DNA from: Marvania coccoides
Taxonomy: Eukaryota > Chlorophyta > Trebouxiophyceae > Chlorellales > Chlorellaceae
Assembly: GCA_963854735.1 (NCBI GenBank)
Contig: OY978101.1
Location: 558,001 to 622,000 of the forward strand
Length of the DNA: 64,000 bases
Direction of reading: 5' to 3'
Every line of letters begins with the position of its first letter. Positions within the stretch are counted from its first letter, which is position 1. The notes below the pieces were generated by a model. It was not told where the DNA came from, searched no databases, and worked only from the letters and a program-made list of their open reading frames with translations. Positions 19,008 through 64,000 of this stretch are shown one piece after another. Both the position numbers and the translations under genes were made by a program.

Positions 19008-21545
19008 TTACTTTCCGCTGCTCTGCAGGCTCGCAACGATCCCCTCCAGCTTGGCAGACAGTTGATCAAACCGCGAGGCAGCTTCCTCCAGCCGCCGCAT
19101 CGCCACATTCGCTCCCGCGATGCTGGCATCTCGTGCCATCAGGGAGGACTTTCCCGTCACATCAATCTCGAGACTTTCTTCCAGAATTTCGGGGTTGTCC
19201 TCCAGAGGCGCCCTCACACTCTTCCAGTTCCGGTCGTTCCGGGTGCGGTACCACCTCGTAACAAAAATGCTGACGATGCCAATGCACACACCGGCGCCCA
19301 GAATGACCCACAGCCCCCAAATGCCGTCGATCGTGGCGTGACCTTCTGTTTGCGATGAGAGCTACAGGGAGGGAGGGGGGGCACACGCTTAATTTGAATA
19401 TTGCCTTTCCTCTTTCACATACACAAGATTAAACACTTACTTCGCAGTAATACGCTGGGTCATCTGACATGAACTTATGCTGCACTCAATTAAGAACATA
19501 TTGAGTTGCCACAAACATCGCCGTCTCAGATTGTAAGAAGAGTCCTCCCTCAGCGGAACCTGTTTCACCCTTAAGCGATGGTACAATGGCGCAATACGAA
19601 ATGTGATTTACGTGTATTTTTCTTCTTTCTTTTCCCCTTTCCCATGCTTTCTTCAGGACTCACCTCGAAGTCTTCCATGATCCCGCTGTCTTGCATGTTC
19701 AAAATCGCTCTGGAGAACTGCTCGATGACTGTGTCATTGAACTCCTGCCAAAACACAATGCCGTAGTTAAATCTGCACGCAAGTAAACCGTTATTTTTCT
19801 ATCAGTCGGAACTCCCTGAAATCCAGCAATTGAACACAATGAATTCATAAAAAATAAAAACCCACGGCTCCAGAATTGTGCCCTGCATCAACCCCAAATC
19901 GCATTTAGTGCGCTTGGAGGCGATGTATCCGCGCAGCAGGGGCTCATCCATGATGTAGGCCGCTATCGTGCCCGCCACCAAATTTTGCGCTGCTGCTTGG
20001 ATGGACTCGTCCCCCCTAAAACCTTCGCCCGTCACCATGATGCCCTGGGCGCGCAAGCGGTCAACGTAGAGGTCTGCTGTGGTCACCAGCCTGATATATA
20101 TATTGGGGAGAACAAGATTATTATTCAAGCATGGCCGCTGCTGAAAAACTTTAAAAATGCAGGAGTGTGAATAAATTAGGCGTAAGTAAGTAAGCTGCTG
20201 CGTCGTTCCTACCGTCCATTCAGGTCCTCGATGGTTCTCACCGCGCTGCCGATGGTTTTTGCTGTGAGCGATGCGGCTAGATTTGCAGTGTAGGTGTTGA
20301 TCAATATCAGGGACATGAATGCGAAGCACAGGGACGCAAGCTTGGCACCTACGGAAATAAGATGGTTTGGTCATAATCAATGCAGGCTCAATACTGCTAA
20401 GGAATGGCAACACTACAAAATAAAAGCGAATAGTTGAAACAAAAAAAAGGATAGTTTTCTCACCGAAGCTGGAAACTTCCAGTGTCTCCAAACCCATAAG
20501 GGTCCATGAGCTACCTACCATGACGTTATGCACGCCTGGGAGGACGTCTGCCCTTTTGATGCGGCGCTTCAGCGACCCCCACTCTGCGTGCGCAAGAGAG
20601 AGAAAAAATAAGCCGAGTTACCGGAAAAGCGAGCGCTGGGACGCTTTGCACTGTTTTCCTCTACTCGCCGATGACGAAAAGAAAGAAGGGGAAGACGATG
20701 GCTGTCGAAATTGCGGCAATCCATAGACCGGGCGTGAAAGGGTCAAGCCACCCCCAACCATTGTTTACTCTGCAATCAACAAGCCAACAATCGATTGATG
20801 AAAAAAAAGATGTAAATGTAAATCGTAAAGAGTTTTTTTTTTTTTTAATACCGTGTTTTTGGCATGCTAATATGTTGTGTTGTGGAGTGGCTCACATTTC
20901 TGACGTTTGAATCATGATACTTAGTCCCGATGACCAGTAAGGCTGCAGAGATATAATGTTGGAACAGTGAGAGTATATGCTAAAACAAAGAGGCTAACGC
21001 AAGACGGAAAAAATAAATAAAAAAAATGCATGCTGACTCACGAAGGAGAACTTCAGCCCTTGCTCTTGGCGCTCCGCCGTGATGGTCACCGCCGACATTG
21101 CCATGTCACAAAATCCCGTGGAAATGGAGAGATTCTTTACAATTGCGTCGAAAGGAAGGCACTTGAAGTAAAAGTCGACGCCCTCTACCCAGTCAATCCT
21201 TCTGGCCGCCTCTCTGAACGTGTAAATGTCAAAACCGGTGTAAGACTCGGCTGGCTCCGTCTCGTTGCACTGTACCTGTAATTAGGAATTAACAATGCGA
21301 TGAATACGATGGTTATCAGAGTTACTAAGGTTGGGTGGCCGGCACAATTTGTGGAGCCTGGCTAGTTAGCTCACCATGGGGTACAGGTTTGTGACGCAAA
21401 CCTCAAATCCAGGTCCGGTTGAGTTTGAATTCGTCAATGGCGGCCCGGTGGGAGCAGGGGCTGGGGCGGGCTGGGCGATTGCAAAATTAAAAGTGGCTGC
21501 CATCAGCCAGAGGAGCACCCAAGGCATGGTTATACGCGGCTTCAT
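19008..21545 (-). CDS. Ionotropic glutamate receptor-like channel
   Basis: Ten exons on the minus strand: 21545-21375, 21275-21042, 20942-20896, 20769-20669, 20583-20464, 20348-20213, 20090-19866, 19772-19664, 19479-19441 and 19361-19008, encoding about 511 residues. The order is signal peptide, ligand-binding lobe S1 (YTGFDIYTFREAARRIDWV; DMAMSAVTITAERQEQG), first transmembrane segment, pore loop (MVGSSWTLMGLETLE), the M3 signature NTYTANLAASLT, lobe S2 with a conserved Cys pair (TKCDLG; YYCE), final transmembrane helix and a coiled-coil tail. It lacks the amino-terminal domain of animal and plant receptors. The channel should gate cations at a membrane in response to an amino acid. The fourth intron needs a GC donor. 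The start could also be the in-frame ATG at 21527. Confidence 0.88.
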
Positions 21546-21805
21546 CCACGTACGTAATTTATGACTTGAACATGGCAGTAATAAGATGGAAAAGATTACT
21601 TCTTGCGTTTCCGAAATAAATTTATTCAACTAATTCGAAAAATAAATTGCCACTTCCGAGCGTTTGCCCACGCCAGTTTCAGGATAACACGATTAAATAA
21701 ACACAAGTGACGCGCGGAGAGTTTATAATCAGTCAGTGAAGAAAAGGCCATGGACGTTGGCCAACAAATCGAAACCATTCCTGCCGCCTACTCTCAAAAG
21801 AATCA

Positions 21806-22557
21806 CTACTCCTCGCCCATCCTCGCAGCCACCAGCCGCTCCACGATCTTCCCCAGCAGCCACTCCGGTCTTCCCGAGCCGTCGCATTCCGCCACCGCCC
21901 GCCTCCACCGCTCGGGCACCGCCTCCAGACTCTCGTGAGCGCCCAGCAGGCCGCCAACCATGCATGCGTTTGTGTCCGTGTCCTCCTCCAGGAACCTTCT
22001 GTAACCACGCTTTCGCTTCTGCAATTCCTTTGGCCCGGGTGCTCTCTTCCGCTTCCAGCAACACCACGCAGCAACGCCAGCGCCGCCACGACGTACGCCG
22101 CGTTTGCGTCTTTGCAGGCCGCTTTGGGGTGGGACCTCGCAGCGTCCGCCACCGCCAATTTCGCAGCTTCAGCTGCGCTCAGGTTCCTCCCAGCAGCGGC
22201 GATGGCGATGGGGAGCACCCGCGTCACATCAGCGCGCTGTTGGCCATGGACGACTCTCCCGGGAGAAAGGGGGCTTGAAAGCGTCAAAGCACGTGGTGCC
22301 GACGTCAACAGGCTCAGATTTCAGCCATAGCGTGTAATAGGTGAAGGGGTCTGCGCTGTTGCCAGAGAAATCACGAGCTCGCTGTCGTCGCTTATTTGAC
22401 CAGGGACGAGGTCCCACACTCTGCCGTCTGTCATCGCCATTGCGACCTGCAACGACTGAGGCGTGATGCTGGAGAACTCCAGCGGTCCACCCACAGCGTC
22501 GGCGACGCACGCCCCGTAGAAGGCCCCCAGCGCTCGGATGGTTTGGGTAGGCGTCAC
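21806..22557 (-). pseudogene. Frameshifted ADP-ribosylglycohydrolase (DraG/ARH family)
   Basis: Family motifs occur in order but in different frames with no introns between them. The first frame has the start GAFYGACVADAVGGPLEF and the metal-binding ISDDSELVISLA. A one-base shift near 22375 leads to YYTLWLKSEPVDVGTT. A further shift near 22245 leads to RVLPIAIAAAGRNLSAAEAA, where a normal gene would continue from MANSALM. A last shift near 22010 leads to EEDTDTNACMVGGLLGAH, the second metal-binding motif. The final frame stops at 21806. At least three indels in about 750 bases indicate a pseudogene; assembly error is less likely at so many sites. An intact gene would hydrolyse ADP-ribose from proteins or related substrates. 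Confidence 0.75.
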
Positions 22558-22755
22558 AATTATCAGATTATTTTTGGGGTCAGGTTTTTTTCTCTCCGTT
22601 AAGGTGGGCGTCCATGTTGAAGCCCAGGGTTGAACAGTGCTTTCCTTTGCATTTCGTCAACTCTTACTACAATTCTGCCACAGTAAATTGAATAATTCAC
22701 AGTACAGTCCATCATATCAAATATCCAAATTTTAAAATACATACAAATTCCGCTG

Positions 22756-23883
22756 TCATTCCTCGTCTTTGCCAATACCAAATGGCTTGTACACAGCTTC
22801 CAGGTACTCTTCTTCAGTGTCTTGACACCCATCGTCCACCCCCATGATGATTTGAAACCGCAGCAACTCGTGGAACTGCGGGAGAGAAATTACGCGCACC
22901 CCAGGTAGCGCCGCCGCCGCCGCCCGCTCCTCTTTCGTGTTGTAACCCCACCCAGCGAGGTACAGCGAGTAACGCTGCGCCAAATCTGGCTCAGCTGCCA
23001 CTGCCGCCAAAGTCTCAAACCTGAAATCAACAAAAGTAGCACCAGAAAAAATATTAATTACGCAAACTACAATAATTACTTCCCAGTTAATTAAAGTGGG
23101 AAAAGGTTGCAGCCACCCAACTGACCTGTCGTCGACAAAGTGGAGGGTGGTGGATCGGTCTGCCGCAACGGGTCTGGCCGCCACCAGCCGCAGCGCCTCA
23201 ACTTTCTTCTCCGACGGGGGAATCAGCGAAGACATCACCCTGGGACTGCCTTCCTCCACGTCCATGCCCAGCAGCGCACGCAGCAGGGCGATCAACCGGT
23301 CCCCGCGCTTGCTGCTGCAGATGTAAAACGGCGCTGCGCAGTCGGCCAGGGCGTCAGCAACGCCTTCGTACAGCGGACACAGCGCAGCCCACGCTGCAGG
23401 GTCTTTCGCCACGCGCTCGCTGCGATACCGCTCGAATTCATCTACCAGTGGTCTCTCCACCTCCCCCCAGGCTGCCAGTGTTTCTCTCAGCAGCCCCGTC
23501 TCCCAGTCTGATTCTAAAATAGCGGCAACATTGGCTGGGTCCTCTAAAATTAGCCGGGCCATCACCATCGACTCGTAGCCTTTTACTAGTCGCGGGCGCA
23601 CAGTGGCGAGGCCAGCGAGAACGCGCTCCCGTTCGGCGGCGCTGATTTGCAGGTTAGGCCACCGCCGAGCTGCTGAATCCAAGCCAGCGCTGTTCACTTC
23701 GAATTGCGAGTCCGCGATCACGCCATCGAAATCCAGGACGAAGACATCGCCAGGCGCTGCTGCACAGGGTCTAAAAGCTCGTCGCTGAGTACGAACGTTT
23801 GGGTGAGGTTTTGATTGAAGAATATTTACAACAGGCCGGGACAGGGCCTGCGGCTGTGAACAAAAGAACCACAATGACTGCAT
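22756..23883 (-). CDS. HAD-superfamily hydrolase, probably organellar
   Basis: Exons on the minus strand are 23883-23126 and 23020-22756, encoding 340 residues. Motif I of the haloacid dehalogenase fold is VFVLDFDGVIADS, with nucleophile Asp51 and acid Asp53. FYICSSKRGDR fits motif II (Ser/Thr) and TLHFVDDR fits motif IV, the metal-binding Asp pair. Residues 1-45 are rich in Ser, Arg and Pro with few acids, consistent with a transit peptide; that is inference. The C-terminal part contains LYLAGWGYNTKEERAAAA, as in algal and plant HAD proteins of unknown substrate. Divergent from PRMT4. Confidence 0.85.
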   Translation of the reverse strand: MQSLWFFCSQPQALSRPVVNILQSKPHPNVRTQRRAFRPCAAAPGDVFVLDFDGVIADSQFEVNSAGLDSAARRWPNLQISAAERERVLAGLATVRPRLVKGYESMVMARLILEDPANVAAILESDWETGLLRETLAAWGEVERPLVDEFERYRSERVAKDPAAWAALCPLYEGVADALADCAAPFYICSSKRGDRLIALLRALLGMDVEEGSPRVMSSLIPPSEKKVEALRLVAARPVAADRSTTLHFVDDRSVGWLQPFPTLINWEVIIVVCVINIFSGATFVDFRFETLAAVAAEPDLAQRYSLYLAGWGYNTKEERAAAAALPGVRVISLPQFHELLRFQIIMGVDDGCQDTEEEYLEAVYKPFGIGKDEE

Positions 23884-24192
23884 TTAATAATACGTTTGAC
23901 AATGAGAGGAAGAGAGAAGAGAGTTAAAAATTGAATGCCACGCTGGCCTGCCAAAGCGGGCAACAAATGCAAGCAATAAACCACATGCATGCACAGAGTT
24001 TGCAGGCTAAATAAATCTATTAATATAAAATTGCCATATTGACGCGGCGATCGCTATAAAACACTCAAATATTTTCAAATTCTGTTTCATGCATGCCATT
24101 TACCCTTGCCAACTTAAATTGAATTTGAGTTCCACGCATAAAAGCAGCAATTCGGCATTTTAATCAATATATTCGATTGCAATTTGGCTGCG
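23884..24192. promoter_or_regulatory. Bidirectional intergenic region HAD/PRMT4
   Basis: 309 AT-rich bases between divergent start codons. TATA-like stretches are present (CTATAAAA near 24053; ATATATTC near 24167), but I cannot assign them to one gene. Confidence 0.45.
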
Positions 24193-25969
24193 ATGGCCAA
24201 CCGATTTGTCGTCGAGGACATCGGGCTGACTGTCCTGGCAGGCTCCCCCAGCGATGGCTTGACCGACTCCAGAAGCGATCAGAGCGAATTCACCGTGGCA
24301 GTGGAGCTGATCAAGGGTCCGCACGGCGACACCATCGTTGTCACGACCAAATCAAACCAAAATCTCGCACCCATTCCTGCAAACAAGGACAGCGTGAGTG
24401 TGACGCCTTGAGGCGCATTATGTGTGTTCGACTGAGAGCATGTAGAATCGACGTAGTACATGCATGCATGCACACACCTTCGAAATTCTCACCCAACTGC
24501 CTCCCCTTGCCTCACAGTTGTATCGAGTCCCTCAGGGCAATGCCTACATCCTCCAAGCCCCCGGACCACCCGATAAAGCGCATCCCGGCGTCCTGGTGAT
24601 GGTGCCCAAGAGCAAGGAGGCCAACGCAGGGATGCAGCGGCTGTACGAAGCTGCCACGACAGTGCCCACCACAGCACTCACAGCAGCAGGTCATTTCGAT
24701 AGCAAGACCGACAAGGGGTCGGCCGACCTGTACTTCTCATACTATGGCATGCTGCAGCACCAACAAAACATGCTGCAGGACTACATTCGCACGGGGACCT
24801 ACTTTTCCGCCATTGCCGAAAACGCCGAAGATTTCGCGGGCAAAGCGGTCATGGACGTGGGATGCGGGTCCGGCATCCTCTCGCTGTTTGCCGCGCGCGC
24901 GGGCGCCCGCGTGGTGTACGCCGTAGAGGCCTCCAACATGGCCAAATTCGCGCGGCAGCTGGCTGACGCCAATCCCTCGCTGGGACCCAGAATAAAGGTG
25001 GTTCACGGCAAAGTGGAGGAGATTGAGCTGCCGGAGAAGGTGGACGTGCTGGTCTCTGAGCCTATGGGCACGCTGCTGGTGAACGAACGTATGTTGGAAT
25101 CCTACGTCTACGCTCGTGAAAAATTCCTAAAGCCGGGCGGCAAAATGTTCCCCAGGGTGGGTCGCATCTTCGTGGCGGCCTTCTCCGATCCGGTGCTGTA
25201 CGCAGAGGTGGCCGCCAAGGCCGCATTTTGGCACCAGCCCTCGTTCTACGGCGTCGATTTGACGTGCCTTCAAGCCCCCGCCGCTGCCGGCTACTTTGCG
25301 CAGGTGGTGGTGGACCAGATCCCGCCCAACGTGCTCGTCTCCAACACCGCCGCCCACGCCTTCGACTTCTCTTCCTGCACAGAAGGCGAGCTGCAGGACT
25401 TCACGATCCCGCTGTCGCTGCAAGTGGCGGGCCCCTGCACGGTGCACGGCATTGCCTCGTGGTTTGACGTGCTGTTTGACGGCTCCCGGGTGCAGCGGTT
25501 TCTGTCCACTGCGCCGGGGCTGCCGGTGACGCACTGGTTTCAGCTGCGGTGCCTGCTGGAGCGGCCGCTGCAGCTGACGCGGGCAGGGGACACGGTGTCG
25601 GGGGAAATGAGGCTGGTGGCGCACCAGAGACAGGTAATAATAGTGACTTGGTTTTTATTTCCCCCGAATAAGAGCACGTTTAACACATTTTTCAATGCCT
25701 GGCCACAGCTTTTAAACCAAGTCGGATTGCTGTATTTCCGATACATACCGGCATTCTTAACACGCTTCCCCTCTTTAATTTGTTTGCAGAGCTACGACGT
25801 GCATTTGACGCTGCGGGCGCCGCCGATGGGCGCAGGGCAGCCCCCCCAGGAGAGCAGCGGCGTATTCGACTTGAAGGAGCCTTACTACCGGCAACTGGTG
25901 TCGGGGGGGTGGTACGGAGGTGCCGGTGGCGACTACGCTGGTGGTGGAAGCGGCCACAACGGGGCATAA
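24193..25969 (+). CDS. PRMT4: PRMT4/CARM1-type protein arginine methyltransferase
   Basis: Exons are 24193-24393, 24518-25633 and 25790-25969, all GT-AG, giving 498 residues. It transfers methyl groups from S-adenosylmethionine to arginines. The SAM-binding motif I is VMDVGCGSGILSLFAARAGA (about residues 178-197). The double-E loop is SEPMGTLLVNERMLESYVYA, whose NERMLESY is diagnostic of the CARM1 subfamily. The THW loop is VTHWFQLRCLLE. The N-terminal 110 residues are consistent with the CARM1 EVH1-like domain, including the YRVP stretch. The C-terminus is a short Gly/Tyr-rich tail instead of the animal transactivation domain. Nuclear and cytosolic action is inferred from the family. Confidence 0.94.
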
Positions 25970-26465: not shown

Positions 26466-27996
26466 ATGAATACTGTGTATCTAGCTGCATTTGCAGCGCT
26501 AGCTGCCATTTCGTTTGCTAGCCGGCCAAATAATAATTTGATCGCTTTGCGAACAGACCCAGAACCCGACGAATGCAAATACCTACCCGCAGTTTTGTGG
26601 CATGGCGAGTGATTGATGCACGCTGTCAACAGTGCAGCTAACGCAAATCCTCATTTTCCGCCAATTTTTGCCAGCCTTCTGCAGGAATGGGGGACAGCTG
26701 CTGCGCGGAGTACAGCATCGGCGCGATCAAGAAGCTGTTGGAGCGCACCCTGGGGCCCGGCTGCCACGTGCATTCAATAGCCACTGCCCGCTCTGAGCGT
26801 CTCGACATCTTTTCAAGCTACTTTGGAAACGTCAACAACCAGGTAATAATAATAATAAAACTGCAGCACGGGTCATTGAGAGCGAGGAAGTCAAAATTTT
26901 GGGCAGCCACGCTGTTGGGGTGGATGAGAACGCGGAACCAAGACTCTCTCTTCACCCAGCAATCTCACATCGCCCTGGCATTGCTATCTCACATCCCCAC
27001 TACTAAATATATATATATATATATATAATCTATATTTAGGTGGAAATGGTCTGCGATGAGCTGAGCTCCATACCGCAGCTGCAGAATGGCTACGTGGGGG
27101 TGGGGTTCAGCCAGGGCGGGCAGTTCATGCGAGCGGTGGTGGAGCGTTGCCAGCATAGAGGTCCGCCCATGGCGGTGCTGGTGACGATGGGCGCGCAGCA
27201 CCAAGGCGAGTGTATTCAAATGTTTTTACGGCCGTTCTTTCTTGCTTTTTTTTTTTTTTTTTCCTCACACAACCGCATAGCACATCTTTTGTTTTATCGA
27301 CATTTTAAATATTTGAAACATGAAATGCAGGCGTGATGGACATCCCTGGCTGCTGGGAGCCCTCCTTCAACTCCACGCCCTCATTTTACTGTCGCACGGT
27401 GCAGCGGCTGCTGGGCTGGGGCGCGTACATGCCCTGGATCCAGCAGAATGTGGTGCAGGCGCAGTACTTTAAAGACCCAGACGAGCTGGATCTTTACTAC
27501 CGTCAGTCCATTTTCCTCGCTGTAAGCATCGTGCCTTCTTTCTTTGTTGTTACCTCGACTTTTTTTATTTCAGAGCCCGTGCGTTGAGGATTTATCCATT
27601 TATCCATCTAATTCTTATGATAGAATAATCATTTTTTTTTTAAATATCATGCAGGACATCAACGCCGAGGCGCATTCGGGCCCACTTGGCGTCTACAAGC
27701 AGTACCGCGAAAACCTAGCGTCCCTGCGGCTTCTGGTCCTCTTCCAATTCGACAACGACGTCACCGTGGTCCCCAAAGAAAGCGCGCACTTTGCGTTCTA
27801 CGACGGCGAGCGGCTGGTGCCGTTGAACGAGAGCGACCTGTACGTTGACGACCGCATCGGGCTGAGGGCGCTGGATGAGGCGGGGAAGCTAGCGCTGGCG
27901 CACGCGCCTGGGTTCCACATGCAGTTTGAGCTGGAGTGGTTTGAGGCAGCTGTCATTAAGCCGTATCTCATGGTGGAAAACACAGCGTTCCTGTGA
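26466..27996 (+). CDS. PPT1: Palmitoyl-protein thioesterase 1
   Basis: Exons are 26466-26604, 26685-26842, 27040-27205, 27331-27521 and 27655-27996, encoding 331 residues. It removes thioester-linked fatty acids from cysteines of proteins in lysosome- or vacuole-like compartments. A signal peptide (VYLAAFAALAAISFA) is followed by the PPT1 stretch LWHGMGDSCC, the nucleophile motif GYVGVGFSQGGQFMRAVVER, the GAQHQGVMDIPGC stretch and RQSIFLADIN. The general acid Asp and His lie in the last exon (LFQFDNDVTVVP; APGFHMQF). Introns 1 and 3 both require GC donors (GCGAGT) to keep the conserved HGMGDS and QHQGVM joins in frame. Intron 2 carries an (AT)n microsatellite next to its acceptor. Confidence 0.94.
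27005..27028 (+). repeat. (AT)n microsatellite in PPT1 intron 2
   Basis: About 24 bases of alternating A and T directly upstream of the intron 2 acceptor at 27039. It probably varies in length between strains. Confidence 0.8.
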
Positions 27997-28216: not shown

Positions 28217-29974
28217 TCAGTCAAACGACGCTTTTCGGTACAGCGGCAGCCGGTCCATCGCCTCCGCTCTACTGCGCGCCACCTGCGACCAGAACAGCGC
28301 CACGCTGCAGCTGGCGCTCAGCAGGAACAAAGCGTGGAACGCCCGGTGATACAAATCGAACTCCAAGTCGCCGCCTATCGCGTCTGTCACCGCCGCGCGG
28401 TACCGCTCTGGCAGCTGCCTTCGCAGCAACAGCAGAGTGGACACGGTGTAGAACCCCAGCAGCTCTGTCAGTAACAAAACCAACGAGGCGCCACGGCCGG
28501 GGTTGGCGCTGGTGCCCAGCACGGAGAACAGCCGGCGCATGTGGTTCATAAAGCCGCGGAGAGAGGTGACGGAGATGAAGCCGATGAACGCGAGGGTGAG
28601 GTACTGAGAGAAGGCAGAGACGTCCAGGGTGACGGCTCCGCCGGAGAACAGGCGCAGAACGAAGCCTATTGAGCTGGAGACGGGGTCGGAGCGGGTGTCC
28701 TCGCCCATGACGAGCGCCTTGGTGCTGGCAAACATCCTGCGAGGTTTTTTGCAAAGAGGGTTAGTCTGAAAAATTGCATAGGTGTTTGGTGACTTCTTGG
28801 GTGATGAGTTGGGGTAAATTGTGTCCATTTTAGTAAACGAATAGCAATGATCAAAACTGAATGAAAAGAAGCAGTCTTGTTTATTTGTGCGCTGCATGCA
28901 AAAGCAGGAAACTTGAGTTTCGGCACAACACCCTAAAGAAAGAAAGAACTTGCCTGTACATGCAGTAGATGCTGAGCACGTAGCCCAGGAAGTTTTGGGC
29001 GTGGCCGTACAGCGTGCGCGCCACCAGCGCACGCTCCCGCTCCCGCCGCAGCTCCATAACGTCGGTAAACAGCGCCCCCCTCAAATTTTCAAGCGATGCC
29101 ACCTCTATCTCCAGCCCCGCTAGCGCCTGCGACGGCGACCGCCCCGCAGCAGGCACCACCACCGCCACCAGCCGCCCCAGCAGCGAGCGCCTGCTGCCGC
29201 CGGCGATAGACCGCCCCGTCGCCACCTCTGCCTTGAGCGTCGCTATGCTCTGCCGCTTGCCCGCGATCGTGTCCTGCGTCTGCTGCAGCTGCGCCTCGAT
29301 GGCATCGATCTCCGCGCGCTCCACCGGCCGAATGAACAGCGATATGTAGGAAAAAGGCACGCTTACCGAACCATAGCCTGAGAGTACCGCCACCAGAGTA
29401 ACTCCTAGAGAACCGACCCTCCCTATCGCCTCCAGCATGCCGAAGCGGCGCAGCGGGGCGGCGGCAGTGGGCACCATGGGTGCCAGCCACCGCATGTGCC
29501 AGAACGCGTAGGAGAAGCCTCCCAGGGCGAGCACGCTGGCGACGGCAGCTTTGGTGGGGCGGAGCTTGGCTGAGAGGGCGGTGTACGAGTGGTAATACGG
29601 CATGACAGCCAGCAGCATGGCCATGAGGCACAGCATGTCGATGCGCCATAGCGCACGCCGCGGCCTGCAAGGATTACGGAGAAAGATAGCACAGGGAACA
29701 ACGTTGAGCGTCGTCAAGGGGAAAATAAAATAAAAATGTTCGTGATTTGTGGCTTGAAATGAAAATCCCACCCTGGTTCCATGTAGCCCAAGATTTCAAA
29801 CACCAGGAGCTCCAGCATGAAGGAGCAGAGGGCGAAGACCAGGGCGAAGAGGAGGTGCGCTGCCGGGCTGCGGTTCTCAAAGTCTCGAAACACGCTGTGT
29901 TCCAGGAACTTCAGGCCCGCCAGAAACAGCACCGCGAGGGACACGATGGCGATGATGACGTCCGTCGCCCCCAT
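28217..29974 (-). CDS. GPHR: GPHR/GTG (Golgi pH regulator, GPR89) membrane protein
   Basis: Exons on the minus strand are 29974-29772, 29664-28954 and 28736-28217, encoding 477 residues. It belongs to the GPR89/GTG family, multi-pass proteins of the Golgi or ER described as an anion channel that regulates Golgi pH in animals and as GTG proteins in plants. About nine hydrophobic segments are visible, with a central coiled-coil region (EAQLQQTQDTIAGKRQSIAT). Family-specific stretches are FSYISLFIRPVERAEI, NFLGYVLSIYCMYR and GFISVTSLRGFMNHMRRLF. The second intron starts with GC in the context AG|GCAAGT; any GT choice breaks the frame into MFASTKALV. Divergent from CRY-DASH. Confidence 0.93.
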
Positions 29975-33308: not shown

Positions 33309-36300
33309 ATGTTCAGTTCGTTCAAGCAGCTCCAACAAATGCCTCCCCTCGGTATGCACCACTTTTTTATTTAATTTTTGCACAAGTACGTCAGAATTGA
33401 AAAAGGCGTTTAAATAGGGAGCGCGCGTACGATGCGCACGTTCGATGTGGAGAAGCTGGAGGACCAGCCCTTGAATTTGGCTGCACCTAGCTCCACATAC
33501 GTCCCGCCTGAGGTTGGGGGAGCTGGAGCGAATGGGGCCAGCTATAAAGGGCAAGTACCACGCCCAATTGGCCACCCTGGTGCACGCGGCAAAAAGACTC
33601 GCTGCCACATCACTGATTGTGAATTTTCCGCGGCCTGACGAGTGTGTATGCCCGTTCTCTTGCAGGGAATCAACTCTACGATCGTTTGGATCTAAGAAAG
33701 TACTCGTTATTGTAGCAGCAGTCGCCGGAGTTCTGGTAGTTGCCTTGGCAATCGGCCTGGGAGTAGGCCTGACCTCCTCCGATTCCGACTCAAAGGGCGT
33801 CGAATCCTCCTCCCTCACCAAGGGATGCCAGGAGGTCGAAGGTCAGCCCCTCGAATGCCTTAATTTGCCTTCACTGCCCCCCTTCTCATCGCTCCCGCCC
33901 CAAGCACACCATTCAAACCCCCCTCAACACCTCTCCTGCAGACAAATTCTGGACGCACCTGCAGCCCGAGCAGTACGATATCGCGCTGCAGCTGGACGGT
34001 GCCCACTTCGCCTTCCCGGCCCTCAACCCAGCTCAGACTTTCCAGGGCAGGGCGGCCATCACCTTCAACGTCTCCAACCCCGTCTCCTGCGTCATTATGC
34101 ACGCGGATAATCTCAACTTCAGCTCCATCGCCATCGACACTGAAGCGGACGGCGTCAAGGAGCTCTGCGGCTCGTTGGAGGCCTGCAAAGAGGTGGCGGT
34201 GAAAATCAACCGCCAGGTGGCGGTGCCCACCTCGGTGGACCTCAACCTCATCGCCATCGACCTCAGCGGGGTGTCCATCGAGCTGGAGCCGGGCACCGCC
34301 CCCGTTTTATTCTTCAATTACACTGGAGCGCTCGGCCAATACCCGGCTGGCGCTGGCGGCCTGGGACTCCACCGCTCCACGCCCTTCACGGTGTGCGCCA
34401 ACCCGGAGACGCAGGAGGGGTGCAAAGGGCGCGTGCTGGTGTCCACACAGCTGGAGCGGGTGGGCGCTCGGCGCGTTTTCCCCGCCTATGACATGCCCAA
34501 CGTCCGGTCGGTGTTCAACCTCAAAGTGACGGCGCCCTCCGCGGATGCGCCTGTGGTGCTGAGCAATATGCCCGAATCCTCCCGCGAAGACGCCCCCGGG
34601 CTGCCTGATTTCGTCACCGTGAGCTTCGAGCCAACGCCCCGCATGCCTGCCTACCTGCTGGGCCTCACTGCGGGCGAGCTGGAGTCCCCCGTGTCCGCCG
34701 CCGTGAAGACCGCGAGCGGCTTCACCGTGAAGACGTGGGCTCCGGCGGGGCTGGAGGCGCAGATGGCCGACGCCCAAGGGCTGGCAGAAGCGGCGCTGGA
34801 GCACTACAGCGATTTCTACACCGGCGTCGAGCAGCCGATCAAGAAGGTGAGGGCGTTTGGCAGTATACATTAGCATTGGTCGTGAGAATTTCCGAAACAT
34901 TTGGCGCATACATTTCGTATTTTTTTGAACCCGCCACCAAGTGTTACTACTTTCTTTAAGGTTCTTTGAAGGATGTCAAGTCCTCTCATGCTGTTTCCCC
35001 TTCTTCCTCTCCTACACTGATTCTGGGTGTACTGTACCATGCTGTTCATATCACTTTCTTTACTGATTTTGTATCGCATTTATTTTTCTCTGGCAGTACG
35101 ACGTTGTGGCCGTCCCGGGTCGCACCAACGCCATGGAGAACTGGGGGCTGCTCATCATGGACGCCGCCCGCGTGCTCTACACCGCCGAAAACTCGGGCGG
35201 CTACGCCCGCGTGCGCCTGGTGTCAGTCGTGTGCCATGAAGTCGGCCACCAATGGGTCGGGAACTTAATGGGCATCGCGCAGTGGAACTTGCTGGGCACC
35301 AAAGAGGGCCTTGTGACCGAAGAGGAGTACGCCTGCATGTCCAAGGTCGATCCTCAGCTCCCTGGCGATATTTTGCGGTACCGTGTGGTCCCTCCCACCA
35401 ATGAGATCCCAGACGCTCACCTGGGCCCCCTCAACCTGGCGATGGCCATCTCGAGCGACCCGCTGCTGCCCGCGGCGTGCCCTGCCTCCGATCTGGAGTT
35501 CTCCGCTAGCTCCCGCTCCTCCCGGCTGGTGTATTCCAAGGCTGCCATCAATTTCTACATGCTCAAGGCGGCGCAGTTGCTGCTGACCGCGCTTTACCCC
35601 GGGGATCTGTATCGGGACACCCTGGTGAACGTGATGAAGGCAAAGAGCTTCTCCACCTTCACCCTGGGCGATCTGTTCACTGAATCTGTGGTGCTGGTGG
35701 AGCCGGTGATTGATGAAAAAGTGGGACCGGGAAAGCAGGTCGAGGAGTTCCCCTGGGCGATGCTCTACCTGATGCGCGCCAAACAGGTGGCCGCCGCTGG
35801 GGGTGACCCTGACGTGGAGCGGGAGATGGGATTCAACGGCTCTGCCCCCGGTAAGAGAAAAAACCGGAAATAAATTATGGCATCGCCGGGAGAAATTTTC
35901 CCTTTGATAGAAACTGTGGTTGCTGTGTCTGTCGTAATTATTTTGGACACCATCATCAAGAACACTATTTTTCATTCTATTCGCTTTCTGTGTTTGAGTA
36001 TATATCTTAATTTTCCACTTCTTTCCTATTTTTTTTTCTTCTCAGCCGCTGCGTTCCTGTACGCGCCCCTTTACGCCGTCCTGGACGCCCGCAACCCCGA
36101 AGCCATGGTCCCCAACAACGTCTCCCAGACCCTGCTCAACATTGGCGGCACCCAGACCCGCTACTGCGCCTGGACGCTGACCCAAGAGCAGGGCAACGGC
36201 TTTGGCGTCGACCAAAAGCTGATCGATCTGGCGATTTCCACCTGCTCCGCCCCTTCCAAGGTCACCAACATCATCAACCTCGTCAACCTCACGGACTGCG

Positions 36301-40733: not shown

Positions 40734-43221
40734 ATGCCGCCTCAGCCGGCGCCGGCCGTGTCCACCTGGATCTGGGCCGCCACCCTCCTCCTCAGTATTT
40801 CATTCGCCAACGTGAGGCGCCAATGATTTGTTGTTGGCAAAGAATAAAGTGAAACCGTTCCATCTGCTTTATAAGATTTCAAACGCTGCCGGCAGAGATT
40901 TTCTAGGTATTACGAGAGATATAAAACTGAACCCCTCTTTACATTTACTTATAGGGATCTCGGGATCTTCTGTTAACCAACTCTGACAGGTAAATTTGAT
41001 GTTTCCATTCAGCCCCTAATAAATTTCCCCGTCTCCTCGACTGCCTTTATGAACATTGCCCCACCTTCTTTTACACGCCTGCAGCAACTACAAGTGCAGC
41101 ACCAACCACGACATCAAGCTCACGGGGGCCACGCTGAGCGTCAAGCGCGCCCCTTCACTCGCCGCCTGCTGCGCGCTTTGCTCAAAAACCGACGGCTGCG
41201 CTCGGTGGACTTTCTACAAAAGCAAGCGCTGCTACCTGAAGCGCGCAAGCGGATGGAGCCGCATTTCCCACAAAGGCGCCATTTCTGGCAAGGTCACGCA
41301 GCAGTCAAACAGCGAAGGGGGAAGCTCTGCCACTTCCAGCGCGAGCAACTCTCCCTCTTCTTCTTCTTCGATCAAACCGACTGCCTCTGAGTACGCCACA
41401 GTTCTGGGCCTCAGCTGGCTGTTTTACGAGGCGCAGCGCAGCGGCTCCATGCCCAGCAACAACCGCGTGGCGTGGCGGCGGGCTGCGCACACCGACGACG
41501 TAGTCCCCGGCGGCTGGTGAGTTGCATGCAAATTCACATGAATGGCATTAACTTAGATTCGTTGATATCTTCAACTAGCGATGGTAATTATTTGAACTTC
41601 ACATTTTGCATCATAGGGGCCTTAGTTGCCCTTGTGCGGACTTTAAACCCTGTGATGTATTTTTTTCATATGCCCGATAAGCACCGAGGATAATTAAGCT
41701 CAGTCTGATGTATGTATGTATGTATCACCACCCCTATTAGGTACGACGCTGGCGACTACCTGAAGCTCAACTTCCCGCTGGCCAGCGCAGTGAGCTTCCT
41801 CTCCTGGGGCCTGCTGGAGTTCGAAGACGGCTACCTCAAAGCGGAACAGAAGCAGCATGCTATGCGAAACTTGTTTGCGGCCGTTGATTACCTGAAACGG
41901 AGCCACGTCGCCAAGAGACGCTACATTGGCCAAATTGGCCATCCAGGTATATCTATTTAATTTAAGCAAATCAGTTTTCTTTCTTTCTTTCGTTTTTTTT
42001 TTGCTCGTCTTTCTTTTTACTAGAAATTCGAATTGTTTGCTTCCCTGCCCACGGCAGATTCTGACCACAGCTTCTGGGGCCGGCCAGAGGAGCAAAAGGG
42101 CTCCCGCCCGCACTACGCCTACGATTCCTCCACCCCCGCAGCCGACCTTTTTGGCAAGGTCGCCGCAGCGCTGGCCTCCTCCTCCCTGGTGTGGCGCAGC
42201 TCCAACGCCACCTATGCTGCAGAGCTGCTAGAGCACGCCCAAGAGCTGTACGAATGGGGCACAGAAAAGGATGGAAAGTACTCCAGCTACCACAAGAGCG
42301 CCACCGCATCAATCTACCCTTCCAGCGACTCAGCTGACGACATGGCGTGGGGCGCTTACTGGCTGTACCGCGCTACCAGCAACCGCAACTACCTGGAGGA
42401 CTGCGTGAAGTACTGGAAGAAAAAGCACTGGGACGTAACCGTCGACTGGGACAACAGCGGCGCCGCGGTGGGCGTGGCGTTGGCTAATTTGGTGGAAGAC
42501 GGTGTCAGCGTGCCATCGGGTGCTGATGCCAAAGAATTTACTGTGAACGAGTTCCTCAAAGCCTGGACAAAAGGAAACGGCACGTTTTTTTGGTTTGTCG
42601 ATGGTTTCTTTTTCTTTTTAAACTGAATTTTGGCGTCGATTTCATCTGTGCAGGATTCCTCGAGATTGTGAAGACGCCCAAAGGAATGACCTACCCCGAG
42701 TGGAGCAAATGGGGGAACCTTCAACTCAGCACTACCGCTGCGTTCGTTGCTCTCACCCACGCCAAGCACACAAAATCCGCGTCAACTCGCAACTCCGCCA
42801 TCGAGTGGGCACGCTCCCAGGTGGATTACGCCATGGGCAGCAGCGGACGGAGCTTTGTGGTGGGATACGGCAAGAACTACCCTGAGAAAACTCACCACGC
42901 TGGCTCATCCTGCCCTGACCGCCCGGCCAGCTGCGACTGGAAGAGCTTCAAGAGTGACAAAGCCAACCCGCAGGTGCTTTACGGCGCGCTGGTGGCGGGG
43001 CCAAATGGCCCAGGGGATGACAGCTACCGCGACGCTAGGAACGATTACATCTCGAACGAAGTCTCAATAGGGTTAGTGGCGGTGCCGGTGATGTTTTAGC
43101 GGCGGTGTCCAGAAGCAATTCCCATATTTTATCGCCTCTCACCGCACATTTCTTGATTGCATGCTGCAGATACAACTCAGGATTCACCTCTGCGCTCGCT
43201 GGGTTGGTTGATTTGCTCTGA
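40734..43221 (+). CDS. Secreted GH9 endoglucanase with N-terminal PAN/Apple-like domain
   Basis: Seven exons: 40734-40811, 40955-40989, 41085-41516, 41741-41946, 42058-42579, 42654-43071 and 43170-43221, giving 580 residues. A signal peptide (WIWAATLLLSISFA) leads to a six-Cys region (CCALCSKTDGCARWTFYKSK) resembling PAN/Apple domains, then a Ser-rich linker. The GH9 (alpha/alpha)6 catalytic domain follows: GGWYDAGDYLKLNFP with the nucleophilic-water Asp pair, VDYAMG, VVGYGKNYPEKTHH, and the acid Glu in YISNEVSIGYNSGF. GH9 enzymes hydrolyse beta-1,4-glucans by inversion. The donor after TKGNG is modelled as GC (GCACGT); a GT alternative nearby would insert seven residues. Intron 3 carries a truncated copy of the dispersed element. 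Confidence 0.9.
41664..41706 (+). repeat. Dispersed element, copy 2 (left half only)
   Basis: Matches the first 43 bases of the 86-base element (TTTCATATGCCC ... CAGTCT) with one or two differences from each full copy, then ends abruptly and runs into a TATG repeat. It lies in intron 3 of the GH9 gene, in the sense orientation. Confidence 0.8.
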
Positions 43222-53216: not shown

Positions 53217-53388
53217 TCTCTCTGATTGTATGCATGTAGTGTACTTCTTACTAACAAAAATGATACCCTTGTGTTTGATCCATTGCTATCAACGACTTGG
53301 AAACGTAAATCCAAATACAAAAAGAGCAACTCAACAAATCAAGGTCGGTCAGAATAAAAAAATAAAAGAAAGAAAGAAAAAAAGGGAA

Positions 53389-58710: not shown

Positions 58711-59071
58711 GGCTTATATGGACATCGAGGAATGAGGGGAGATCACGAGCAAGAGGGGACCGACGAGCGGCAGAGATTAAAATGATTTTAAAACGAAAAA
58801 TATTAGTGTATGGCCTGGGAACGCGACGCTGCGGCCTCCTTTCATGTGATCATGTTGAATGCAGTCGTGTGAATGCGCTATCGTAAAATAAAAATGGAGA
58901 TACATTTCAGACTGTCATATAAAGGGAAATATTTTGGAGAAAAGAAAAGAGCGTGCAAACCTATGCTACTGGATTAATTTTATAATTTTTAGTTTGTCTG
59001 CATCGTTCAAAGACGATAGCGCGCCGTGCAGAACTCTGTCATAGGAATTATTCAATTCTCAAATCGAAAAA
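58711..59071. promoter_or_regulatory. Bidirectional intergenic region RIC1/VMA16
   Basis: 361 bases between divergent start codons, AT-rich on the VMA16 side. No motif is assigned. Confidence 0.45.
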
Positions 59072-59804
59072 ATGAAGGTTTGGTTTGTGGACACAGAATG
59101 GCTGTCGTTTCTATTTAAAAACATATCGCCATACTACTGGAGTGCGCTCGGGATCTACCTTTGCGTAGGGCTGTCAGTGATCGGCGCTGCATGGTGAGGG
59201 TTCAATGATTTCTCGCTGAAACCCTGCCCTCGATGCCTGGTTTTTGCACACACCAATCAATGCAATTCCTCATCCACACCCCACCATCTCCGCAGGGGAA
59301 TATTCATCACGGGAAGCAGCCTGGTCGGAGGAGCCATTAGAGAGCCAAGGATCACCTCCAAGAACTTGATCAGGTGCGCAGCGCTCCTGTCCCCCCCCCA
59401 CCCCCCATTGATTCCATGCCCATCGCCCTCACCAGCCCCGCCCCGCTTTCTTTCATTGCAGCGTTATCTTCTGCGAGGCGGTGGCCATCTATGGGGTTAT
59501 CGTCGCCATCATTCTGCAGACTAAAGTGGAGGCTGTGCCCCCCAACGCGGACGGCTCGTACTCTATCGCGGCAGCCAACAGCGGGTACGCCATTCTGGGC
59601 GCTGGTTCGGTCACTGGCTGGTCAAACCTGGCCTGCGGTCTGAGTGTTGGAATCGTGGGCAGCGCTGCAGCTCTGGCAGACGCAGCCAACCCCACCCTCT
59701 TCGTGAAGATTCTGGTGGTAGAGATTTTTGCCAGCGCGCTGGGGCTGTTTGGCGTGATCATTGGAATAATTTTGGCAGGAAACGCAAACTTCAAAGGAGC
59801 ATAG
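59072..59804 (+). CDS. VMA16: V-ATPase proteolipid subunit c'' (VMA16)
   Basis: Exons are 59072-59193, 59296-59373 and 59462-59804, giving 180 residues. Five hydrophobic helices are visible: [20 protein letters not shown], the segment around [16 protein letters not shown], the helix [18 protein letters not shown] with the proton-carrying Glu, [20 protein letters not shown], and [20 protein letters not shown] with a second Glu. The longer N-terminus and the Glu in the FCEAVAIYG helix distinguish c'' from the c subunit. It is part of the rotating Vo ring of the vacuolar proton pump. Confidence 0.96.
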
Positions 59805-60208
59805 AATTGTTAGTAGTTGATTTCTAGTAAAAATTGTACAATAGCTCGCTTTAAAAATTGATTTTGTTTTTATTTCTGTTTTGTTAAAGTTTGTTTCGGT
59901 GGCGCCTTTTATAGCTGGTGCTGGTGCTGCCTGTGTGGAAGGCGTGTATGCTTGTTGCCGAAGCGGTCGTTCGCAGAGAGGTCGCAGGCGGGCTAGAGTA
60001 ATGATGGCCTGCAGAAATCAGTACACCGGCGCCATCCACAGCGGATTCTAGTTCCCATTGAAGACCATAAGAGCGGAACAGCCCCTCTATTCAAGTATGG
60101 AGAGGGGGCATGATGGGGACTGCTATGTGTCCTGCTATTTTTGAAAAAATCGATCAAATTAGTTATTGTAATTGTGTACATTAGAATTGAAGTTAAAGTC
60201 ATCTAAAA
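59805..60208. other. Intergenic region VMA16/HPAT
   Basis: 404 bases. It contains a structured stretch at 60050-60121 (annotated separately) and a short inverted repeat near 59985-60013 (GCAGGC and GCCTGC). No coding gene is seen. Confidence 0.55.
60050..60121 (+). other. 72-base segment with nested stems, possible structured RNA
   Basis: AGTTCCCAT (60050-60058) can pair with ATGGGGACT (60113-60121), with one G-T pair. Inside, CCCCTCT (60082-60088) pairs perfectly with AGAGGGG (60101-60107). The size is near that of a tRNA and the outer stem resembles an acceptor stem, but no proper D, anticodon or T arms can be drawn, so I do not call it a tRNA. It may be a 3'-end hairpin of VMA16 or an unknown RNA. 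Confidence 0.35.
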
Positions 60209-62084
60209 ATGGGGCGAACTGCCGCCCATCGCCGATTTTCGCCAGCCCAGCTGGCTCTCTTGAAAGTTTCAATCGTCTTGGGAGCTGGGGTGATCGTGGG
60301 AGCTGCTCTAGGCCTTATCCTCATGGGTATGCATTGCTACAGAATCTGCTACCTGCCGGATCCCAGCCCACGTCAAAATACAGAACATTTTAATCTTGTA
60401 TTTTTCCTGCAGGGACAATCCACTCTATTATGGAGGTTAACGCCAACAGTGCACACTTTGGAAGGAAACAGCCCAGCACGGTCGTCAAAGCAGTGCCAGA
60501 GGCGCGTTCGGTAGAGGTGAAGGAGCAGCCAGCAGCAAAAGCTGCCGACAGCAGCGGTGTTGAAGAGGAGGTCTCTTATAAAATTCATACTCTGGCCACA
60601 TCTAATGGCTCTCCATATCAAAGTACGTAAAACTACACAATTCGCACTGAATTGTGGGATTCTTCTTGGCCGAAATACCGCTAATTTAGCTTACTGTTTG
60701 CTCACCCATCCTCCGCCCACTCCCTTCTCGCAGACTATCAGATGCGCATCGCCTTTGGCACCTACCAAATTATGACCCAAATGGAGGGAGGGGATCGGCA
60801 TGTGGCTTTCACGCGCATTCTGCACCGCACCAAGCCAGATGAGCTCATGGACGAGGTAGAAAGGAACAATTATTTAGACATTACCGCTGTCGTAGCTTCC
60901 TTTTTTTTTCTCGTGTGTACAATACGTCTGGCAACTGAATGCGCACAAAATTACTTCCCTTACTATTATTCAATTTTCTCCTTACGAACATGCCCCCCTT
61001 TTCCCCCTTGCAGATCCCAACGTTCCGCGCCGACCCAGTGCAGCCTGCCTGCGACGTCTACTGCGACTACCCGGTGTCTGACCGCGGCAACGCCGTGCGG
61101 CAGTTTTTCGATGCCGCAGAGGCCGACCCCTCCATGCTGAAAGCCCCCTGGGTTTACATGATTGAGAGCGACTACGTTTTTATGAAACCGCTGGATCTGC
61201 CGCCCCCAGGCTCAAAATCGAGCGACCCGCAGGCCTGGGGATTCCCTTTCGACTACATCCGGCCCGCCAACAACCCCATCCAGATGGCGAAGCTGTGGCC
61301 TGAGGGCAAAGCAGCTGATATTCCTAACACTGGCCCCGCTCCGCTGCTGATGTCTGCGGCGAACTGGAAGAAGGTGACGCCCGAGTGGGAGCGGCTATCG
61401 GCGGCGATTGAGGCGGACGAGGAGATGAAGAAGAAGCTGGGGTGGGTGAGGGAAATGTACGGCTTTTCGGTGGCACTGGCCAGCAACGGCGTGAAGACCG
61501 ATTTGACCCCGGTAGGAAAGAACAAGTTCATAGTGCAGCTGCCCATTGACTCGGGGCTGGGAGACGCACACGCCTACCACTACACACAGGTGGGAAGAAG
61601 GGATACAGAAGAAGAAGAGCATGTTTTGGGGGGAACGGAGCAAGAAGCAGCTGTTAAAGAAGCAGCCAAAACACGTGAATTTGGTACTTTTACTAAGCTA
61701 CGTTTCTGTGCAGCATGGTACTTGTACTGCTATTTTACTCTCTCTGATTAATGAACCTGTTGAATATTCAATTCGTTCTCTTTCCCTTTGGTGCTCAAAT
61801 TGATGGCTACTAATGCAAATTCGTTGCTGTTGCAGTGCACGATTTACAAAACGATTGAGGGCGAGGAGGACGTGTGGAAGTACGACAAGCGGTTCCACGT
61901 GGCGGCAGAGGAGGCGCTCAAGGTGCCTGCCATCCCGGAGCTGCCGGAGTTCCAGCCTGGCAAGTGGAAGTTCATCGAGGGGGAGCCGGTGACGGCTGAT
62001 AAGCACGCGGCCATTGTGATGATGGTGGGGCAGATGAACAAAGCTATAGCCACGCTGAAAGACCTGAGCACAAGCAGACGATGA
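60209..62084 (+). CDS. Hydroxyproline O-arabinosyltransferase-like protein (GT95/HPAT family)
   Basis: Exons are 60209-60326, 60413-60622, 60734-60855, 61014-61589 and 61836-62084, giving 424 residues. A short cytosolic tail and one anchor helix (VSIVLGAGVIVGAALGLILM) suggest a type II Golgi protein. The lumenal domain follows the HPAT family: QMRIAFGTYQIMTQMEGG, FTRILHRTKPDELMDEIPTF, VYMIESDYVFMKPL with an acidic metal-binding candidate, WGFPFDYIRPANNPI, GWVREMYGFSVALASNGV, and DAHAYHYTQCTIY. The family adds arabinofuranose to hydroxyproline of cell-wall and secreted glycoproteins; the related algal peptidyl-serine galactosyltransferases are an alternative. All introns are GT-AG. Confidence 0.87.
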
Positions 62085-62315
62085 TGCTGATTACATTTAT
62101 ATAAATTAATGACTTTGTATTTTTACCTGTCGACTATTGAAGTCCCCATGCGACACCACACGCGCATGCGAACATGGAGGGTAGCATCGACGTAATTTGA
62201 GAGAGTTCAGAGGCAGCAGCTGACTGGACAAGTTTTGAAAAATGAATTGGCGCCTCGGCTTTGCTGCGGCTCTCTTTCTCTCTCGCCCCAAAAAACATTA
62301 AAAAAATTGTTGAAA

Positions 62316-64000
62316 ATGGCAGACAAGAAGCCTCCGCCCAAGCGTCTTGGCACGCTGAGTTCAGGCATAGGATCGAAAACCGGCGATGAGAAGCGGGCAG
62401 GCGAGTGCTATGGCATGGAATTTTCGCTTAATTTATACATTCGTGTATATTTCATTTATATATAGATATAGTCGCGTTGCACCCAAGACGGGCCCAAAGA
62501 CTATTATTTATCAAATTCGCATGAAATTTTTCCCGCAGGTTCTTCAGCAGGTGCTGGCCCCTCATCAGGCCCCACTGGCGGCAGCCTGGCATCAAAGGTA
62601 AGCGACCGCACCTCCTAATGTCCTTTACGCCAATCCCTCCGCTCACAAATTTTCCACCGCCGCTGCAGTTCCGTCCCAAAAATTTCACCAAGCTAGAGGC
62701 CGCAGCCCCTGAGCCGGCGCCCCCGACCGCGGCGCAGCAAGCCGCCGTACAGCCGCAGGCCCGAGACTTCAGGCGCATGCACAAGGGCAGCAGGGGGGGC
62801 CCGCAGCAGATGCAGCAGCAGGTCATGTTTGGTGGCGGTATTGGCGGTGAGTAGATTCACACAGCATTGACGCGTAGAAAGAGACATTGCCCTTTCTACC
62901 GCTCTAATTTATACATACATAGCTACGTCAAATAAATATGCATGCGCTCTTTTGATTCTCAACAGAAATTACTGTGTATACATTTTTTTAACTGAAAATT
63001 TGACGTGTTTTTTTGACACGCTGCAGCGGGAGCGTCCCATGCGAATGGTGGAGCAGCAGAAGTGGCGGGGACGAGCGGGCGCGGTGGCGGTGGAGGTGCA
63101 GGAGGAGGGGGCAGTGGAGGCAGTGGTGGAAAGTCCGGTGGTGCCAGCAGCAGTGGCAGGAAAAAGAGCGAACCAGAGAGCCCCATCTACAAAGTTACTA
63201 AAATTAAGAATAAAGAGGGGAAGACCGCGGATGGGGGCATGCAAAGCGACAGCAGCATGAGCAGCCTGAGCGACACAGATGACGAGGGATTCACCGAAGG
63301 GTCAGTCGGAAAAAAAAAACTGTAATTATTTTATCACAAGAATCCTTGTCTCTTCCTCCCTCATTCTCTCTCTCTTCACGAACCCTCTCCTTAATTTCTC
63401 AATCGGAACCTCCATCCTCTTGCCCTTATCATCACCAAGTTCCCCCCCTTTCGTTTTAGGTACTGGCCCAACGTCATTCCCCGCATGGAGCTCAATGCCG
63501 ACGACGGCGTCGTCCCCGAGGAACTCATGGCGCGCCCGCCCGAAGATTTTGCCTCCCTCATGTCGGAGATCGACTTCCTGGGGCAGCCCGACGACGGCGA
63601 CTGCGGGCTGATGCTGTTTCAGCTGCCCTCGGTGCTGCCGATCCCCGCACCAATGATCAACGCCAACGGTGCCCTCACAGAGGAGGGCCCCGGCCCCTCC
63701 AACGCGCCCACCACCGCCGAGGGCCGCCCCGCCTCCATTGCAGAGCTCCCGCCCACCAAAATCGGCAAGATTCTAGTGCTGGCGAGCGGGGCGGTGAAGC
63801 TGCAGATCGGAGAGACGCTGTTTGACGTGGCACCCGGCGTGCCTTGCACGATGCGGCAGGAGCTGGCGGTGGTGGACCCTGTTTCGAAGGAGTGCACGAT
63901 GCTGGGGGACGTCACCCGGCGGCTGGTGGTGACCCCGGACATCGAGCAGCTGCTGAGCAACGCCCCGCTGCCGCAGTGGAAGAAAGTAGGACGAAAGTCG
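62316..64000 (+). CDS. RPC4: RNA polymerase III subunit RPC4 (RPC53/POLR3D), 3' end cut by the window
   Basis: Exons are 62316-62400, 62539-62597, 62669-62846, 63027-63300 and 63460 to at least 64000. The N-terminal half is disordered and Gly/Ser-rich with FRPKNFTKLE, a conserved RPC4 stretch. The C-terminal RPC4 domain is clear: CGLMLFQLPSVLPIP, TKIGKILVLASGAVKLQIGE, LFDVAPGVPCTMRQELAVVD and MLGDVTRRLVVTPDIEQLL. With RPC5 it forms the TFIIF-like part of Pol III, needed for termination and reinitiation on tRNA and 5S genes. The first intron must use a GC donor (GCAG|GCGAGT) to reach GSSAGAG in frame. The frame is still open at the window edge; a donor GTAGGA at about 63988 is possible. Confidence 0.92.

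Follow-up and report, generated by a model that had tools for sequence, protein, structure and literature searches.

In the trebouxiophyte alga Marvania coccoides CCAP 251/1B (Chlorellaceae), introns that begin with GC instead of GT and end in AG seem, judging from our gene models, to account for about one in every eight (plausibly between 9 and 20%), roughly ten times their usual share; the average reported for plants is 1.2% (PMC6310983). These are very probably ordinary introns of the major spliceosome that carry C in place of U at the second donor position (+2). The stretch at issue is a 64,000-nucleotide window on chromosome 5 (C5:558001-622000 of assembly GCA_963854735.1; hereafter, the window), for which a first-pass annotation had proposed seven GC donors among 72 introns. 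That proportion (9.7%; confidence interval [CI] 4–19%) departs from 1.2% with P = 2.7e-5, and a wider count over 342 kb on 10 chromosomes showed that the excess extends beyond the window. The assembly comprises 22.46 Mb in 15 contigs, described in the genome note as 13 chromosomes at 54–56% G+C and two organelle genomes, with PacBio DNA and Hi-C as the data types (PMC11833223).

Introns were called with a hidden Markov model of gene structure, whose training used no annotation and whose acceptors were limited to AG. In a first run, covering 302 kb, the donor base at +2 started uniform; in a second, C, A, and G at this position were fixed at an equal low weight, with non-GT donors penalised relative to GT. 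Confidence in each intron was expressed as its gain—the log-likelihood lost when its donor was forbidden. The 342 kb sample was made up of 162 kb of C5, 100 kb of C1, and 10 kb each of C2, C3, C4, C6, C7, C8, C9, and C10; the second run was trained on C5 and C1 only, and the 80 kb on the 8 further chromosomes was kept outside training.

The uniform-start run called 351 introns (GT 258, GC 69, GA 22, GG 1, TT 1), of which 86 were in the window (GT 70, GC 13, GA 3), and many of its GC and GA calls, taken before any filtering, appear to be false. The second run returned 313 introns at a gain of at least 2 (GT 258, GC 42, GA 11, GG 2), with GT 190, GC 28, GA 2, and GG 0 at a gain of at least 4 and GT 114, GC 13, GA 0, and GG 0 at a gain of at least 6. 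Expressed as a fraction of GT plus GC donors, GC thus accounted for 42/300 (14.0%, CI 10.3–18.4), 28/218 (12.8%, 95% CI 8.7–18.0%), and 13/127 (10.2%, CI 5.6–16.9) at the three thresholds. The chromosomes outside training gave 39 GT, 8 GC, and 1 GA at a gain of at least 4. When the penalty on non-GT donors was removed, GC donors rose to 41/231, 28/142, and 12/68 at thresholds of 4, 6, and 8 (18–20%), and GA and GG together numbered 13, 2, and 0. GA donors, at 11 of 313 introns at the lowest threshold of the penalised run and none at the highest, were accordingly rejected as a second class. Dinoflagellate-type genes use GT, GC, and GA donors, with GA frequent, and have many GC donors in common with Marvania; the counts at a gain of at least 4 leave a dinoflagellate-type relaxation of the donor unsupported here. 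Counting AGGNRAGY directly, with no annotation, yielded C 65, A 38, G 41, and T 31 at the variable base; as GC is a common dinucleotide, this is no proof of an excess.

Within the window, every one of the seven GC donors is present where the first-pass annotation had placed it (Table 1), with the donor words it had listed—GCRAGT at six sites and GCACGT at the GH9 site. Its argument that these junctions keep conserved protein sequence in frame is backed by homology at all seven, firmly for the two PPT1 sites and GPHR, well for GH9 and the glutamate-receptor-like gene (GluR), and weakly for RPC4 and the M1 peptidase, because the last two junctions sit in poorly conserved N-termini. It had also held that at most of these sites the GT lying nearby downstream is out of frame; this is so for the GT within GCRAGT itself, but in-frame GT alternatives exist 6 nucleotides downstream at PPT1 intron 3, 6 nucleotides upstream at GPHR, and 60 nucleotides upstream at GH9. 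At these sites frame alone is therefore not decisive, and it is homology of the predicted proteins, rather than frame, that disfavours the alternatives.

At GPHR, the GC junction gives IYCMYRMFAST. This includes a residue pair, Y or F followed by R, which is missing from the best GT-only model and occurs in all 28 homologues displayed. The GC version scores higher against 49/49 homologues, with a mean difference of 9.3 bits; the best GPHR homologue, from Nannochloris desiccata, is 70% identical, and a search of solved structures with GPHR gave no match. Both PPT1 junctions were compared with PDB 1eh5, which we take to be bovine PPT1: intron 1 falls in a gapless alignment (WHG/MGDSCC, the slash marking the junction), as does intron 3 (QHQG/V). 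Intron 1 was missed by the gene model because its first exon was skipped, and this junction was assembled by hand. For GluR, a Pfam match to Lig_chan covers the GC junction, and a weak structure alignment to GluN1 (E about 1e-6) passes through it; the structure alignment of GH9 runs on both sides of its junction, with a gap close by. The first exon of RPC4 (MxDxKPPxxRLG) is in frame in 2/7 homologues, both from N. desiccata, and is not shown by the other 5; the gain of this intron was 5.0. The M1 peptidase intron was called in the first model run and is absent from second-run introns at a gain of at least 2; the motif MR..D.E..QPLN and a membrane segment, in frame across the junction, are clearly common to one of the three homologues compared (P0057). 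At that threshold, the second run placed 62 GT and 7 GC donors in the window, five of the latter being those of GluR, PPT1 intron 3, GPHR, GH9, and RPC4, whereas the other two (23760 and 32002) are doubtful. On this evidence, the seven sites are probably spliced as modelled.

Table 1. Positions of the GC-AG introns of the window (window coordinates; a slash marks the exon-intron junction) and of splicing-related genes elsewhere in the genome
Feature	Position	Strand	Donor
GC-AG intron, glutamate-receptor-like gene (GluR)	20584..20668	-	TCG/GCGAGT
GC-AG intron 1, palmitoyl-protein thioesterase 1 (PPT1) gene	26605..26684	+	ATG/GCGAGT
GC-AG intron 3, PPT1 gene	27206..27330	+	AAG/GCGAGT
GC-AG intron 2, GPHR/ABA_GPCR gene	28737..28953	-	CAG/GCAAGT
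GC-AG intron near 5' end, M1 peptidase gene	33551..33665	+	AGG/GCAAGT
GC-AG intron 5, GH9 endoglucanase gene	42580..42653	+	ACG/GCACGT (weaker)
GC-AG intron 1, RPC4 (RNA polymerase III subunit) gene	62401..62538	+	CAG/GCGAGT
U1 gene	L023:1501-1652 (G000:C1:2148218-2148369)	-	
U6 gene, one of two	L001:1501-1601 (G000:C2:1511042-1511142)		
U2 gene	L034:1501-1687 (G000:C2:1275898-1276084)		
LUC7 gene	G000:C8:694072-694996 (L028)		

The modelled junctions of the whole sample were also compared with Pfam, using pieces of up to 100 residues per side and counting a junction as spanned where a single match extended at least 10 residues beyond it on both sides. From the 42 GC junctions at a gain of at least 2, we scanned 39 pieces covering 40 junctions, leaving two out, along with 11 of the 13 GA/GG junctions (two left out) and 20 random GT junctions out of 258. 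Spanning matches were found at 8/40 GC, 6/20 GT, and 1/11 GA/GG junctions; 18/39 GC pieces and 10/20 GT pieces had no Pfam match of any kind. Scaling the GC and GT counts by homology in this way sets 8 GC against about 77 GT junctions, or about 9% GC, a rough figure with a wide error. We then compared each GC version with the best GT-only version, trimmed to the same flanks, at nine junctions—the eight spanned ones and one where the match reaches 7 residues—a set selected for having a domain spanned by the GC version. The GC version scored higher at 9/9, with bit scores (GC/GT-only) of 66.6/60.9, 94.1/61.8, 72.4/61.2, 153.5/145.1 (PPT1 intron 3), 62.5/48.3 (GPHR), 38.5/30.5, 26.0/23.0, 42.4/38.1 (GluR), and 128.7/112.7 (GH9).

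Several points weigh against reading these calls as a genuine excess of GC donors. The sample is 342 kb out of 22.5 Mb; the lower rate of spanning matches at GC than at GT junctions suggests, on small numbers, that perhaps a third of the GC calls at a gain of at least 2 are false, which would bring the rate nearer to 9%; the sole GA/GG junction spanned by a Pfam match lies in a reverse transcriptase; and the strong consensus of GC donors, described below, is partly produced by the model's own penalty on non-GT donors. Taken further, the same lower spanning rate, together with GC calls that look false (for example at window positions 21996, 23760, 23848, and 59988), would fit a gene-model artefact, in which GC is chosen to bridge frames near a true GT donor, an error, or a pseudogene. 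We regard this as very improbable as an account of the excess, given that GA and GG, which the model allows equally, nearly vanish at a gain of at least 4 (2 and 0, versus 28 GC), that GC was preferred in every direct Pfam comparison and by every GPHR homologue, and that the assembly has a reported quality value of 66.5 (PMC11833223).

Two stretches with poor calls were noted in their own right. On the minus strand of the window, 21810-22550 is a coding-like stretch that can be joined to its neighbour only via poor GC and GA donors and resembles a broken gene or a frame that was missed. Near position 649600 of chromosome 5 (G000:C5; L011), a reverse-transcriptase (RVT_1) match adjoins a doubtful GA intron call, and this stretch is possibly a decayed retroelement.

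The GC donors of the sample have the consensus AG/GCRAGY, with G at -1 in 40/41 (GT donors, 151/190) and G at +5 in 40/41 (GT donors, 161/190). Over the seven donor positions other than +2, they match U1 at a mean of 5.39 positions, compared with 4.60 for GT donors (P = 5.9e-7). Among donors of the form AG/GNRAG at a gain of at least 4, GC accounts for 22/53 and GT for 31/53, while the remaining donors comprise 6 GC, 159 GT, and 2 GA. GC and GT introns are alike in G+C content (40.2%), with a median length of 96 for GC and 115.5 for GT introns. Positions +7 to +9, the first of five stretches tested, are richer in U after GC donors (T 0.49, against 0.30 for GT introns; P = 2.4e-4), a difference that fades past +16; this could fit extended pairing to A2 of U1 or to the A before ACAGAGA in U6, or a U-binding protein. 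Among branch-point motifs, TAACT and ACTAA are weakly enriched and runs of C more so, with no clear shift matching the GUAGUU of Marvania U2 described below. Minor-spliceosome (U12-type) introns, whose donors are of the RTATCC type, were rejected as an explanation, as the GC donor matrix does not fit them.

The GC donors are thus strong on both sides together, which is what a mismatch at +2 would need. Two donor classes, AG//GU and //GURAG, have been described by Parker et al., with U5 and U6 contacts that compensate each other (PMC9803359). In Marvania, the A-C mismatch with U1 at +2 would be offset by near-complete pairing on both sides: upstream, the AG before the junction would pair with U1 and with loop 1 of U5, and downstream, RAG at +3 to +5 would pair with U1 and then with the ACAGA of U6. 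If the spliceosome of this lineage checks +2 less strictly, strong donors could drift between U and C. The same strength bears on a further suggestion, by which selection for alternative splicing would retain introns that are regulated or spliced inefficiently, with GC donors as their mark. For human, nematode, and Arabidopsis, a link between GC donors and alternative splicing has been drawn (PMC2490688), but the GC donors of Marvania are strong, not weak, at their remaining positions, and we consider this explanation improbable.

We then turned to the spliceosomal small nuclear RNAs (snRNAs), since the first-pass annotation had raised the possibility of relaxed or specialised recognition by U1 and U6. 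A single U1 gene was found, whose positions 3-11 read the canonical ACUUACCUG; at positions 1-2 the gene sequence has CA in place of AU, and the full-length Rfam match scores 58.8 bits against a cut-off of 69.5. Two U6 genes, identical over the stretch compared, have an intact ACAGAGA. A changed U1/U6 donor code is therefore not supported by these sequences, and of the earlier proposal what stands is the part concerning tolerance, as an unusually frequent acceptance of C at +2 is a fair reading of the counts. In a survey of 240 species, 230 of them Saccharomycotina yeasts, U6 ACAGA was invariant and U1 read ACUUACC wherever U1 was found (227/230 yeasts and 9/10 outgroups; PMC10581693). It would also be conceivable, by base-pairing logic alone, that a U1 variant placing G opposite +2 reads GC donors directly. 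The sole U1 gene found carries A at that place, however, and neither the covariance model nor a DNA search recovered a second copy, although a strongly diverged U1 could escape both; a variant U1 seems to us a very remote prospect.

Outside the donor-pairing boxes, we did find departures from consensus. The three bases before ACAGAGA in U6 are AUA (Rfam consensus, gAU), and U6 reads AGAAAAUUAGC where the consensus has AGAAGAUUAGC. The latter change led us to expect a matching one in U2, which was then found: U2 reads GCUAAGAUU for GCUAAGAUC, with GAUU in place of the consensus GAUC. U2 also has GUAGUU instead of GUAGUA in its branch-site region. Given that U6 A56-U57 pairs with U2 A27-U28 (PMC4081067), the altered pair of U2/U6 helix Ia would be U6 55-U2 29, changed from G-C to A-U in an apparent compensation. 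A pattern search of viral contigs for other algal snRNAs gave no matches. A canonical eukaryotic U6 was seen at about 2292-2323 of a contig filed under a Verrucomicrobiaceae metagenome-assembled genome (L035; JAIYDP010000129.1), which is probably eukaryotic contamination.

As for proteins, U1-C-type and METTL16-type domains are present in the genome, and a single LUC7 gene was found. We take this LUC7 to resemble the LUC7L3 type, and the LUC7L/LUC7L2 type may be missing. Variation at donor base +4 has been associated with METTL16 and SNRNP27K (PMC10581693), making protein or modification changes plausible causes of donor shifts. Candidate causes of the Marvania excess include differences in the proteins of the U1 and U6 particles or in RNA modification, or changes in the U6/U2 core. 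A specific version of the last, in which the AUA flank of U6 and the G-C to A-U change in helix Ia co-evolved and loosened the check on +2, so that C and U would be nearly interchangeable in well-matched donors, is a tentative and rather unlikely proposal.

High GC-AG shares are already on record for algae, among them Chlorella, which also belongs to the Chlorellaceae. Iwata and Gotoh (2011) reported 39.6% for Aureococcus, 22.2% for Micromonas pusilla, and 7.7% for Chlorella sp., and found the U1 5' ends of Aureococcus and two Micromonas to be canonical; they pointed to G+C content, left the cause open, and called it an enigma (PMC3033335). The introns of Marvania resemble the GC-AG subclass of U2-type introns in having a GC donor, an AG acceptor, and a strong two-sided consensus, but this subclass makes up about 1% of introns in most genomes and is about ten times commoner here. 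The Marvania rate may exceed the 7.7% of Chlorella (P = 0.0055 at a gain of at least 4, P = 0.18 at a gain of at least 6). Micromonas pusilla and Aureococcus anophagefferens share with Marvania a very high GC-AG share and a canonical U1 donor box; they differ in having 66–70% G+C and introners, whereas Marvania has AT-rich introns and showed no introners in the 342 kb sample.

These differences bear on the two published explanations. The first is that introners—transposon-like introns with GC donors—have spread through the genome, as proposed for the excess in Micromonas, where GC donors occur in 53% of one introner class of strain CCMP1545 (PMC3879977); Aureococcus, the other extreme case, has introners too (PMC9860276). 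We would expect such a family to leave similar copies, but there were just 12 similar pairs among 404 modelled introns, the single GC-GC pair sitting in one duplicated segment, and 13/404 introns, 2 of them GC, had any further copy in the sample. GPHR intron 2 and RPC4 intron 1, searched against the whole genome by a method that skips very common words, matched only themselves. With no intron family seen, introners were rejected on the sample, and we hold them to be a most unlikely source of the excess.

The second explanation, suggested by Iwata and Gotoh for the species with the highest shares, is T-to-C mutation at +2 in genomes of high G+C. Of 61 species, the three richest in G+C did have the highest GC-AG fractions (PMC3033335), and Marvania has GC-rich chromosomes (PMC11833223) and modelled coding sequence of 63% G+C. 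Against this, its modelled introns are only 41% G+C, with no difference between the GC and GT classes, and Chlorella sp., second in genomic G+C among the 61 species, reaches a share not above that of Marvania at about 55% G+C. Base composition is thus an unlikely explanation, if less so than introners.

We also observed that the two modelled introns at window positions 17877-18362 (chromosome 5) and the two at L013:4361-4841 (chromosome 1) share about 98% identity, which points to a recent duplication or mobile element; the GC "introns" modelled in it are doubtful.

No papers on splicing in Marvania were among the 12 to 30 best-ranked matches of each literature search. Marvania adds a well-supported example to a phenomenon already known; both published explanations are disfavoured for it, and it carries the snRNA changes besides. 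Hardly any signal in eukaryotic genes is more constrained than GT, and in this alga gene finders restricted to GT would lose about one in eight donors or put them in the wrong place. The possible causes could be told apart with the help of a compact, well-assembled, culturable species that has the excess but AT-rich introns, and in which no introners were seen. If the U2 and U6 changes prove common to relatives rich in GC donors, a link between the snRNA core and donor tolerance would be testable by comparison, and if the core is relaxed, Marvania would offer a spliceosome that has become tolerant at the second donor letter in nature.

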